Assembly: GCA_025934735.1 (NCBI GenBank)
Contig: JAICWP010000002.1
Coordinates: forward strand, 124,001 to 188,000
Reading direction: 5' to 3'
Length of the DNA stretch: 64,000 bases
Origin: Terriglobales bacterium
GTDB taxonomy: Bacteria > Acidobacteriota > Terriglobia > Terriglobales > Acidobacteriaceae
The position numbers were made by a program, and so were the translations under genes. The notes beneath the pieces are model-generated. The model did no database searches. It saw only the letters and a list, made by a program, of their open reading frames with translations, and was not told the DNA's origin. Shown here piece after piece: positions 47,845 through 64,000 of the stretch (position 1 is its first letter; every line of letters begins with the position of its first letter).

Positions 47845-47850
47845 AGACGG

Positions 47851-47973
47851 CAGTTAGCAATTAGCATTTGGCATTTAGCCCTTAAAAATCTGAACGCCGC
47901 CTGACGATTTTTCTGGACCCGGCAAGAACGTGGCTGGCCAAGTGCCAAGTGCCAAGTGCTAACGGGTAACGGG
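47851..47973. repeat. Inverted pair of 7-bp-period tracts between clc and ada
   Basis: Left tract 47851-47884 (AGTTAGC, AATTAGC, ATTTGGC, ATTTAGC) and right tract 47936-47973 (on the other strand CGTTACC, CGTTAGC, ACTTGGC) enclose about 50 bp that hold AAAAATC and GATTTTT arms, a likely two-way terminator. The right tract runs into ada and supplies its last codons and stop. Confidence 0.65.
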
Positions 47974-49026
47974 TGATTCTTTTTCCCTCGCCAAGAGCTT
48001 CTGCTTCCTGCCTAACCCCCAGCGATATCCTCCCAGCTCGCCCGTGCCACGGACCACGCGGTGGCAGGGAATCAGCACGGCTACGGGGTTGGTGGCGCAG
48101 GCGCGGGCCACGGCGCGTGCCGCTTTGGGGTGGCCTATTTCAGCTGCTACCTGCTGGTAGCTCTGCGTGCTGCCGTAAGGAATGCGCAGCAGCGCCTCCC
48201 ACACCTGGCGCTGAAAAGCGGTGCACTGCAGGTCCAGGGGAACGCCGGGGTGAGGCTGGTGGCCGGCTACCGCGTTCACGATCTCCTGCACCCACGCGCG
48301 CAGGCCCGATCCGGCGGACTTGATCTCAGCGGCGGGAAATTCCTCCTCGAGTTCGCGCTGGAGTTCGCGGTCGGACCCGCCAAACTGCACGGCGCAGACG
48401 CCACGATCGGTGGCAGCCACCAGCACGCGTCCCAGGGGGCAAGCCGCGGTAGCGTAGCGGATGTTCATACCCGCGCCGCCCCGGCCGTAGGTGGCGGGGG
48501 TCATGCCCAGGCGCCCATTGGCCGCTTCGTAGATGCGGCTGCTGGAGCCGTAGCCCGCCTCGTAAGTTGCCGTGGTCACGTTGTAGCCCTGCCGCAAGCG
48601 CCCTTTCAAGCTCTGCAGGCGGTGCCCAGCTGCATATTGCCGCGGCGAAATGCCCAGCGCCTTCTTGAACATGCGTTGCAAATGGAAGGCACTATAGCCG
48701 GATATACGGCTCAGTTCACTGAGAGTGACGCGACGACCGGCCTGATTGTCGAGATAACGGCAAACGCGTGCGACCACGTCGTGGGCAGAAGTGCCGTTGC
48801 GGTCGGGGTGGCAGCGGTGGCAGGCGCGGAACCCGGCCTGCTGCGCCTCCTGCGGCGCACCGAAGAAGGTCACCTGCTCGCGCCGCGGACGGCGCGACGG
48901 GCAGGAGGGGCGGCAATAGATGCCGGTAGAACGTACGGCATAAACGAACTGCTGGTCAAAATGTGGATCGCGTTGCAGTACGGCGGCCCAGCGTTGATTG
49001 CTTTCGAGATTGGTTGCGGTTGTCAT
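47959..49026 (-). CDS. ada: Ada-type DNA repair methyltransferase and regulator
   Basis: 355 residues. Residues about 10-80 hold the zinc/methyl-acceptor Cys ('STGIYCRPSCPSRRPRRE', 'GFRACHRCHPD'). Residues about 85-180 are an AraC-type DNA-binding domain ('VTLSELSRISGYSAFHLQRMFKKALGISPRQYA'). The C-terminal third is an O6-methylguanine-DNA methyltransferase with 'AVLIPCHRVVRGTGELGGYRWG' (acceptor Cys). It removes alkyl groups from phosphotriesters and O6-methylguanine and induces the adaptive response. No alkA or alkB is adjacent. The last codons lie in a heptamer tract. Confidence 0.94.
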   Translation of the reverse strand: MTTATNLESNQRWAAVLQRDPHFDQQFVYAVRSTGIYCRPSCPSRRPRREQVTFFGAPQEAQQAGFRACHRCHPDRNGTSAHDVVARVCRYLDNQAGRRVTLSELSRISGYSAFHLQRMFKKALGISPRQYAAGHRLQSLKGRLRQGYNVTTATYEAGYGSSSRIYEAANGRLGMTPATYGRGGAGMNIRYATAACPLGRVLVAATDRGVCAVQFGGSDRELQRELEEEFPAAEIKSAGSGLRAWVQEIVNAVAGHQPHPGVPLDLQCTAFQRQVWEALLRIPYGSTQSYQQVAAEIGHPKAARAVARACATNPVAVLIPCHRVVRGTGELGGYRWGLGRKQKLLAREKESPVTR

Positions 49027-49744: not shown

Positions 49745-49808
49745 GAAGAATTGCGCCTCCTTAAACGCAAAAAAAAGAAGAATTGCGTCTCTTTAAACGC
49801 AAAAAAAG
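49745..49808. repeat. 32-bp tandem direct repeat, hairpin-forming
   Basis: Two copies (49745-49776, 49777-49808) start with GAAGAATTGCG and end in CGCAAAAAAA. Inside each copy TTGCG and CGCAA can pair. They lie downstream of the clpC terminator. Confidence 0.7.
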
Positions 49809-61865: not shown

Positions 61866-62597
61866 TTAGTGGACGTGAAAAATGCTGTCCAGCAGAAAGA
61901 GAAATGCGACGCCGACAAACACCAGGAGCGCCATCTTTACCCCCGGCTCTTTGTTGACCTCGGGAATGAGGTCGGAGGCGGCGACGTAAATGGTGACGCC
62001 GGCGGAGAGCGGGAGCCCGGCGCTGACCGCGTGCTTGAAAAGGACCATCGTCAGCACGCCCGCCAAGGTGGCGGCCCCCAGCAGCACGGAAGCGCTCCAC
62101 GCCCAGCCGCGGCTGCGCCCGCTGGCCAGCATCACCGAGGCCACCGTAAAGCCCTCAGGAATCTTATGCAGGAAAACGGCGATGAAAATTATCCATCCCA
62201 GCCAATTGGAAACCAGGAAGCCGGAGGTGATGGCGATTCCGTCAAAAAAAGTATGAATGATGAGACCGAGCAGAACGGACATGCCTTTATGCGCCTGCAC
62301 AAACTCCGCGCGGTGCGTTTCTTCGCCAAAATGGAAGTGCGGCGTGACTGTGTGCTCAAAAAAATGGATAAGCAGGTAGCCGAGCAGCACCAGAAAGCCG
62401 GCGCTGAAGCCGCGCAGCTGCAGGCTGGCCGGCACCATCTCCACTAGCGACGTGGCCAGCATGAAGCCGGCGCCCAGAGCCATGAAATACTTCAGGTAGC
62501 GCTGCTCCCAGTGCCGGCGCGCGACCACCGCGCCCCCTAACACGTTGGCGGCAGCGGCGGTCAGGCCGAGCAGGATGCTGAGGGCGATAGGGTGCAT
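61866..62597 (-). CDS. ZIP-family metal transporter
   Basis: 243 residues, about seven to eight membrane segments. A His-rich loop ('HTVTPHFHFGEETHR') and the two signature helices 'GLIIHTFFDGIAITSGFLVS' and 'FIAVFLHKIPEGFTVASVML' carry the His, Asp and Glu that bind zinc or iron(II). Probably imports a divalent metal. The downstream H-box protein starts 53 bp beyond its stop in the same direction. Confidence 0.92.
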   Translation of the reverse strand: MHPIALSILLGLTAAAANVLGGAVVARRHWEQRYLKYFMALGAGFMLATSLVEMVPASLQLRGFSAGFLVLLGYLLIHFFEHTVTPHFHFGEETHRAEFVQAHKGMSVLLGLIIHTFFDGIAITSGFLVSNWLGWIIFIAVFLHKIPEGFTVASVMLASGRSRGWAWSASVLLGAATLAGVLTMVLFKHAVSAGLPLSAGVTIYVAASDLIPEVNKEPGVKMALLVFVGVAFLFLLDSIFHVH

Positions 62598-62600
62598 GGT

Positions 62601-62644
62601 TCAGCTGTCGGTTCTCGGTTGTCAGTTCTCAGTTCTCGGTAGTC
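62601..62644. repeat. 7-bp-period tract, left flank of four-helix gene
   Basis: Units CAGCTGT, CGGTTCT, CGGTTGT, CAGTTCT, CAGTTCT. Inverted partner at 63056-63103. Confidence 0.68.
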
Positions 62645-62655
62645 ATGCTGCCTGC

Positions 62656-63015
62656 TTATTTTGGCTTAATGGAAGCAAGCAGGCCGTTCAGAATTCGGCC
62701 CAGTTCCGCGGTCCGTTCAAGTAGACTCCGGCATGCCTCCTGTTCGAGATACTTCAGTTTTTCAGCGATTATGATCTGAGTTTCGACCTCGACAAGCGAA
62801 CCGCGTGCCATAGCCAAAAAATGGTGAAATTCCTTAGGCGAAAAACGCGCTTGTCCCTCAGCGATGTTGCTGGGGACGGAAACGGCAGCGCGCCGAAGTT
62901 GGTTGCTTAGTCCGTAGAGTTCCTCTCGCGGAAACAGGCGCGTTACCTCATAGATCTCGGTGACCAGATCAATTCCTTTCTGCCACGCAATCAACTCGCG
63001 ATAGGACTGTCCCAT
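62656..63015 (-). CDS. Four-helix-bundle protein (23S rRNA IVP / Avd type)
   Basis: 119 residues. 'SYRELIAWQKGIDLVTEIYEVTRLFPREELYGLSNQLRRAAVSVPSNIAEGQARFSPKEFHHFLAMARGSLVEVETQI' is the classic pattern of the four-helix-bundle family found in intervening sequences of 23S rRNA genes and related to the Avd subunit of diversity-generating retroelements. No rRNA, reverse transcriptase or variable repeat is nearby. It sits alone in a gap, flanked by inverted heptamer tracts, as if it were cargo of a repeat element. Confidence 0.9.
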   Translation of the reverse strand: MGQSYRELIAWQKGIDLVTEIYEVTRLFPREELYGLSNQLRRAAVSVPSNIAEGQARFSPKEFHHFLAMARGSLVEVETQIIIAEKLKYLEQEACRSLLERTAELGRILNGLLASIKPK

Positions 63016-63055
63016 TGCTGCTCTCTCAGCAATCGTACCTAAGAGTCGGCCCCTC

Positions 63056-63103
63056 TGAGAACTGAGAACTGAGAACCGGGAACTGCGAACCGGGAACTGC
63101 CTA
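63056..63103. repeat. 7-bp-period tract, right flank of four-helix gene
   Basis: Units GAGAACT, GAGAACT, GAGAACC, GGGAACT, GCGAACC, GGGAACT: seven periods, the reverse complement of the units at 62601-62644. It runs into the ychF stop. Confidence 0.7.
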
Positions 63104-64000
63104 CCCCGAATGCCTAATGTGCATTACATCGCCATCCTGCACAATGTAGTCTTTGCCTTCGAGGCGCAGGGTGCCGCGGGCGCGGGCATTGGCTTCGGAC
63201 CCGGCGTCCAGCAGCGTGTCCCAGTGGATGGTTTCGGCACGGATGAAGTGTTTCTCCAAGTCGGAGTGAATGGCTCCGGCGGCCTCCACCGCGCGGGTGT
63301 TGCGGGCGATGGTCCAGGCGCGGCACTCGTCCTCTCCCACGGTGAAGAAGGAAATCAGGCCCAGCAGTTCGTAAGTCTTGCGCACCAGGCGCACCAGGCC
63401 GCTCTCCTTTAAGCCGTAGCTGGCGAGGAATTCGCCCGCGTCCTCATCGGCCATTTCGGCCAACTCGGCTTCCACCTTGGCGCAGATAGCGATGGCGCCC
63501 GCATTCGGGCGAGCGGCCACTTCGGTGAGTTCATATTTCGCGATGGCGTCCTCCAGTTCGCGGCCCAGGTCGTGAGTTTCGCTGATGTTGAGCACGTAAA
63601 GGATGGGCTTTTCGCTCAAGAACATGAAGCCGCGCACCCGCTTCTTGTCGTCCGGCGTCATGGGCATGTCGCGGAGCGGGTGCTCGCTTTCCACATGAGC
63701 TTTGGCGCGCAGCAGCAGGTCGTGTTCGCGCTCCAGTTCCGGGGAACGCATCCTCTTCAGATCTTTTTCCAGGCGCTCCAGGCGTTTTTCGATCTGGCCC
63801 AAATCGCTAAGGATGAGGTCGAAATCCACGTTCTTGATGTCGCGCAAGGGGTTGATGTCACCTACGTGGGGAATGGAAGGATCGTCGAAGGCGCGCACCA
63901 CGTGCGCGATGGCATCCACTCCTCGGATGTTGGTGACAATGGAGTCGCTCAGTCCTTCTTTCGGATCTCCCGCCGCGGTTTTGGCGGAGGCCACGGGCAT
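63101..64000 (-). CDS. ychF: YchF-type Obg-family GTPase/ATPase, N-terminus outside window
   Basis: The last 299 codons are present; the gene continues beyond 64000 and the Met codon at the edge is internal. 'GLSDSIVTNIRGVDAIAHVVRAFDDPSIPHVGDINPLRDI' , 'KPILYVLNISE' (NKxD-like region altered, as in YchF) and the C-terminal TGS domain 'ISFFTVGEDECRAWTIARNTRAVEAAGAIHSDLEKHFIRAETI... KDYIVQDGDVMHIRHS' identify it. YchF binds ribosomes and hydrolyses ATP in preference to GTP. Stop is provided inside a heptamer tract. Confidence 0.93.
   Translation of the reverse strand: MPVASAKTAAGDPKEGLSDSIVTNIRGVDAIAHVVRAFDDPSIPHVGDINPLRDIKNVDFDLILSDLGQIEKRLERLEKDLKRMRSPELEREHDLLLRAKAHVESEHPLRDMPMTPDDKKRVRGFMFLSEKPILYVLNISETHDLGRELEDAIAKYELTEVAARPNAGAIAICAKVEAELAEMADEDAGEFLASYGLKESGLVRLVRKTYELLGLISFFTVGEDECRAWTIARNTRAVEAAGAIHSDLEKHFIRAETIHWDTLLDAGSEANARARGTLRLEGKDYIVQDGDVMHIRHSG

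Follow-up and report, generated by a model that had tools for sequence, protein, structure and literature searches.

Comparison of the 64,000-nucleotide stretch analyzed here (the window) with related and more distant genomes revealed a compact unit of about 490 bp (about 0.5 kb), in which a gene of the IVP (S23/four-helix-bundle) family is enclosed by inverted tracts of tandem heptamers. This tract-IVP-tract unit is probably a small selfish mobile element, namely the 23S rRNA intervening sequence (IVS) in free-standing form on the chromosome. In the window, it takes up the whole intergenic space between ychF and a ZIP transporter gene, and the features are as follows:

47850-47974, no strand assigned: two inverted tracts with no gene between them, at 47850-47884 and 47937-47974, of a different heptamer type (period-7 scores 14.2 and 21.8)
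61866-62597, minus strand: ZIP metal transporter, flanking gene (PF02535, E 3e-28)
62601-62645, minus strand: left inverted arm, 3' of the IVP gene (heptamers CAGTTCT/CGGTTGT on the plus strand; tract score 36.5)
62656-63015, minus strand: IVP gene, 119 amino acids (PF05635, 135 bits; TIGR02436, 131 bits)
63055-63105, plus strand: right inverted arm, 5' of the IVP gene (heptamers GAGAACT/GGGAACC; tract score 40.8)
63101-64000, minus strand: ychF GTPase, C-terminal part, running off the window (PF06071, E 7e-36)

An earlier note, made from the letters alone, had described a complete gene enclosed by inverted heptamer tracts at distances of 11 bp and 40 bp, and this description, approximate distances included, held. 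The left arm and the reverse complement of the right arm align without gaps over 27 bp (25/27, score 23), a score that none of 2000 inverted comparisons at similar spacing in the same window reached (99th percentile 12, maximum 21). The two arms are also the top GAGAACT-type tracts in the 64 kb, with a maximum of 12.0 in five shuffles. The gene is intact from its ATG at 63015 to the stop codon at 62656-62658, and its product matches PF05635 over positions 1-106 of 106 (E 1e-39, 135.3 bits versus a curated cut-off of 33.8) and TIGR02436 far above the cut-off of 24 bits. The fit between the neighbors is tight: the stop codon of ychF (63101-63103) lies inside the outer end of the right arm, and the outer end of the left arm is 3 bp from the start codon of the ZIP gene (62597). 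The note's remark that other inverted tracts hold only a hairpin or spacer was borne out as well, by the pair at 47850-47884/47937-47974 in the window and, outside it in the same genome, by C45:67716-67865, C45:35333-35404 and C45:200380-200478. A 32-bp direct repeat at 49745-49807 of the window, present in two copies (93% matches), ends in a run of A.

Folded together, the two arms pair at -46.9 kcal/mol, and in folding of the whole unit 32 of 51 left-arm bases paired with the opposite arm, so that the termini could form a long stem like those of an IVS. Since its neighbors are ychF and ZIP, the unit lies outside rRNA and is classified not as an rRNA IVS but as an IVS-like unit outside rRNA. 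Furthermore, IVP is its only gene, with no transposase or recombinase, and the unit therefore was not assigned to any known transposon family.

A structural model of the window IVP protein (pLDDT 96) matched Xcc0516 (2gsc) with a Z score of 21.6 over 115 residues at 1.0 Å, and BT_0352 (2rld) with a Z score of 17.8. Avd proteins of diversity-generating retroelements (DGRs) share this fold (Z 15.2-15.7 over 106-108 residues, 1.6-1.7 Å, 12-14% identity) and score above unrelated bundles (Z 12.6), with the Avd profiles staying under their cut-offs (DivGenRetAVD, 26.6 bits versus 80; bAvd, 33.1 versus 40). In its retroelement, Avd acts together with RNA and a reverse transcriptase, and solved complexes include 8ub7. 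Whereas Avd adjoins a reverse transcriptase, none adjoins the window IVP gene, whose neighbors are ychF and ZIP, and the phage Avd gene examined has no heptamer tracts. Residues P29, Q39, S46, N50, A52, E53, G54, S73 and E76 are invariant among diverse IVPs, and we know of no catalytic motif in the family.

The note had suggested testing homologous genes in relatives for inverted flanks, and matching tracts were found not only there but also in many other phyla. IVP genes occur in 107 of 150 related genomes, with up to 17 copies per genome. Flanks were examined with a detector that relies on 7-bp periodicity alone, without any consensus, in the adjacent 250 bp on each side. For 103 acidobacterial IVP genes, a period-7 tract was detected on the left in 74%, on the right in 71% and on both sides in 63%, versus 4.5% of segments 840-1100 bp away and 0% of shuffled flanks. 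A collection search yielded 80 IVP loci, including Spirochaetes, Planctomycetes, Verrucomicrobia, Chloroflexi, Fibrobacter, Omnitrophota, Proteobacteria and Firmicutes, in a sample biased toward close IVP relatives by the narrow alignment used. With both flanks available for 78 of these loci, 62 were positive on the left, 68 on the right and 56 on both sides (control, 4.8%). The period itself is specific: 7 was found in 77% of 364 flanks and its multiple 14 in 61%, versus at most 1.6% for periods 2-6 and 8-13. About one quarter of single IVP flanks have no detectable tract.

The genome of the window is itself rich in GAGAACT-type tracts, so that tracts common in a genome might flank the gene merely by accident. 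This explanation has practically no probability left, as it is refuted by the controls, with tracts in 71-87% of flanks beside the gene and 4-5% one kilobase off; moreover, arms match within elements only, and the pattern spans many phyla.

Inspection by eye added plasmid-borne IVP copies with heptamer arms in cyanobacteria, Bacteroidota and an alphaproteobacterium, and, in the Gemmatirosa plasmid copy L166 (Gemmatimonadota), inverted arms of 8-bp instead of 7-bp units (CTCCTGCC). In Azospirillum, the alphaproteobacterial plasmid copy L169 lies inside a 23S rRNA gene, with the Rfam LSU match spanning it, and its heptamer arms pair over about 25 bp. The presence of one and the same IVP gene on two Calothrix plasmids was considered as a case of transposition, which was rejected: their flanks are 97% alike over 3 kb, that is, the plasmids are homologous. 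Several plasmid contexts were recorded in passing. On the Nostoc edaphicum plasmid pNe_5 (L161), the unit has perfect AGTAGGG arms and separates the genes for the two ribonucleotide reductase subunits, lying on the strand opposite to both. On plasmids of Anabaena sp. 90 (L164) and Pseudanabaena (L167), the unit occupies the space between cas6 and cas4 in a CRISPR operon, with different heptamers on the two plasmids; the operon of Anabaena sp. 90 is annotated as type I-D. The 23S rRNA IVP is included in a published list of CRISPR-associated domains (PMC10910872), and this listing may reflect insertion rather than function.

Heptamer tracts were absent from the flanks examined at the distant IVP subfamilies L002 and L084-L090. 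In L084 and L087 (both G126) and L086 (G119), two IVP-like domains share one open frame of 444 amino acids, likewise without tracts; together with the tract-free distant relatives L002, L089 and L090, they possibly represent a domesticated branch.

We then compared the arms across elements. The arms of one element are alike when inverted (0.78), as compared with 0.48 across elements and 0.44 in direct orientation, and IVP copies that share a genome differ in heptamer. Among 120 elements, tract similarity tracked protein identity (Mantel rho 0.39, with 0 of 500 permutations as high), and at equal protein identity same-genome pairs were no more alike in tract than pairs from different genomes. 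After removal of pairs with homologous flanks, tract similarity was 0.43 at 25-35% protein identity and 0.79 at 65% or more (27 pairs). As tract type follows protein identity and not the host genome, these comparisons of sequence tie the heptamer to the lineage of the element, in which it is passed on along with the protein. The transition/transversion ratio inside the arms, about 1.2, is uninformative on RNA pairing.

Using ychF to locate the equivalent site in relatives, we found the unit with the same heptamer type in G000, G001, G024, G044, G048, G023 and G076, and with a reversed gene in G050. The unit is decayed in G017, G008 and G029. The note had proposed to look for a gene-free site between ZIP and ychF, and such sites exist, from clean junctions of 14 bp in G035 (L136) and 12 bp in G021 (L139), where the unit is absent, through to a remnant right tract alone in G036 (L137). 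Occupied and empty states thus both occur, and either could be ancestral. No target duplication was established, the empty sites compared being too diverged. In the sister species G126, a search with the flanks of L013 uncovered no empty site but a dispersed repeat that has no relation to the IVP gene. This repeat of about 120 bp (L013:71-199) has 56 matches in G126 and often forms inverted pairs 200-400 bp apart.

Because the unit is common to several genera at this site, the window copy is old, and it looks long vertically inherited there. This conservation, with the same heptamer type, and the ability of the arms to pair as RNA would also fit hairpins that serve regulation or RNA processing and are passed on vertically around a resident, immobile IVP gene, e.g., for autoregulation on its own transcript. 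We consider this quite unlikely, since the same lineage with the same heptamer occurs in unrelated contexts: the 27 pairs with at least 65% protein identity carry alike tracts there. Gene-less arm pairs at many places and the up to 17 copies in one genome also speak against resident hairpins, as does a second site at which the homology is confined tract to tract.

This second site is a junction that we take, from a reading of the translated ends, to be htpX-moxR-like. Here, L180 and G206 have the full unit, in G186 the core is inverted while the flanks have stayed in place, and G027, congeneric with G206 and G186, has a tract, a 53-bp spacer and a tract, with the gene missing. G027 carries a full unit (L260) 4.6 kb away, behind a ZIP gene, and L260 and L180 are 74% alike exactly from left arm to right arm, only within 1882-2413 of L180, in unrelated flanks. 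At the place of this full unit, G182 and G005 show paired tracts without the gene, and the heptamer there is of another type. The same unit with the same ends at unrelated places, as expected of a transposable element, is therefore seen both in L180/L260 and in the 27 high-identity pairs. The note had named tracts kept where the gene is gone as evidence against a movable unit. Such a case was found once, at the htpX-moxR-like junction of G027; the 53-bp spacer keeps the inner termini, however, and the locus looks like an element that has undergone internal deletion. The note's central suggestion of a repeat-bounded, movable unit is supported by the arms on homologues in relatives, the gene-free sites and the tract-to-tract copy elsewhere within one genus. 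From these comparisons we infer that the unit has moved.

Given that full, inverted and gene-less forms occur at the same site, gene-less tract pairs are most simply explained as deletion derivatives, and the pair at 47850-47974 of the window is probably a related derivative. In one-pattern counts over the 150 genomes, GAGAACT-type tract matches averaged 16.1 in the 107 genomes with IVP versus 0.8 in the 43 without; those IVP-free genomes that had at least five matches were incomplete assemblies. A reversed control pattern was likewise more frequent in genomes with IVP genes, possibly through matches to heptamers of other types. Tract density in five genomes was 117.5 per Mb (11 IVP matches), 17.5 (3 matches), 5 (2 matches), and 0 and 5 (none). 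Very long, nearly perfect GAGAACT tracts were observed downstream of ychF in G050 (L140, 546-665; about 17 units) and in G182 (C55:47770-48586), which suggests recent expansion.

Inverted termini, a patchy spread and an excess of gene-less over gene-bearing copies are also what a MITE-like passenger would show if an ordinary transposase worked on the arms in trans. Such a passenger is unlikely, as the termini vary within one genome and track the IVP protein rather than a shared enzyme, and an intact IVP gene would not be needed. In addition, variable-length tandem heptamer arms are, to our knowledge, unlike the ends of known transposons.

The neighbor 5' of the IVP gene is co-directional in 86 of 108 clear cases (binomial, 4e-10 for direction). 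In 63 of the 108, its stop codon lies at most 10 bp from the left arm; neighbor frames were taken from stop to stop, and in some cases the stop codon may come from the arm. Most units sit at the 3' end of a gene that reads in the same direction. This co-direction likely means either that the gene needs upstream transcription or that 3' ends are tolerated places. The bias bears on the very unlikely alternative that the unit is a switch, in which the IVP gene is inverted by recombination of one arm with the other and its expression thereby turned on or off. The inverted core in G186 and the reversed gene at ychF-ZIP in G050 would suit a switch, but the orientation is strongly biased to the upstream gene, no recombinase was present within or beside the units inspected, and gene-less units would lack such a role. 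Moreover, inverted repeats invert occasionally anyway, and these inversions could have arisen from ordinary recombination between the arms.

Among known systems, rRNA intervening sequences, as in Coxiella burnetii and Azospirillum L169, have the same protein family and inverted, stem-forming termini; they lie inside rRNA, whereas the window unit lies between protein genes. In the 23S rRNA IVS of C. burnetii, tandem heptamers occur beside the S23p gene in strain-variable number (PMC4990558). Heptamer arms are not named as a hallmark of the IVP/S23 family in the papers searched, and in the open-access literature we found no paper that links IVP genes to heptamer tracts or describes the unit. Heptamer repeats as such are known from Xanthomonas (GGGAATC), Nostoc/Calothrix and Beggiatoaceae (TAACTGA), those of Xanthomonas forming convergent inverted pairs, 70-75 per genome (PMC4692102, PMC4679880). 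They resemble the arms in their period of 7 and dispersed occurrence, and Xanthomonas also has the IVP protein Xcc0516, but they were described without a link to IVP, mobility or a cause. In its way of working, the unit may be compared with REP/RAYT and REPIN, in which a single small gene likewise goes with short inverted repeats and numerous copies that lack the gene. However, RAYT is a Y1 transposase, whereas IVP units end in lineage-specific tandem heptamers.

It is conceivable, albeit on balance somewhat doubtful, that tract-IVP-tract units form a new, transposase-free mobile class in which an Avd-like protein recognizes its own lineage-specific arms and places copies of the unit at gene 3' ends, probably via folded RNA or a single strand and with host enzymes; such a class would cover the rRNA IVS and account for the heptamer repeats of bacteria, which have long lacked an explanation. 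In the reading that we prefer, that of a small selfish element, the IVP protein is an Avd-like bundle, like its close relative Xcc0516, which is a pentamer; it would recognize its own heptamer arms, either in a hairpin of the transcript or in a folded single strand, and would thereby promote copying of the unit to new locations by enzymes borrowed from the host. No DNA-cutting or -joining enzyme is encoded in the unit, and none was identified. Once transcribed, the arms would form a long stem open to RNase III cutting, as in rRNA intervening sequences, and insertion between co-transcribed genes would therefore be tolerable. Loss of the gene would leave tract-spacer-tract units, possibly carried in trans. 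We infer arm recognition by IVP, copying by host enzymes and processing of the transcripts by RNase III.

If this is true, it would join three puzzles, namely, the purpose of the IVP/S23 protein, the spread of rRNA intervening sequences and the over-representation of heptamers in bacteria. It would also offer a simple unit of about 0.5 kb whose ends are defined, and it predicts that each IVP protein binds its own heptamer.
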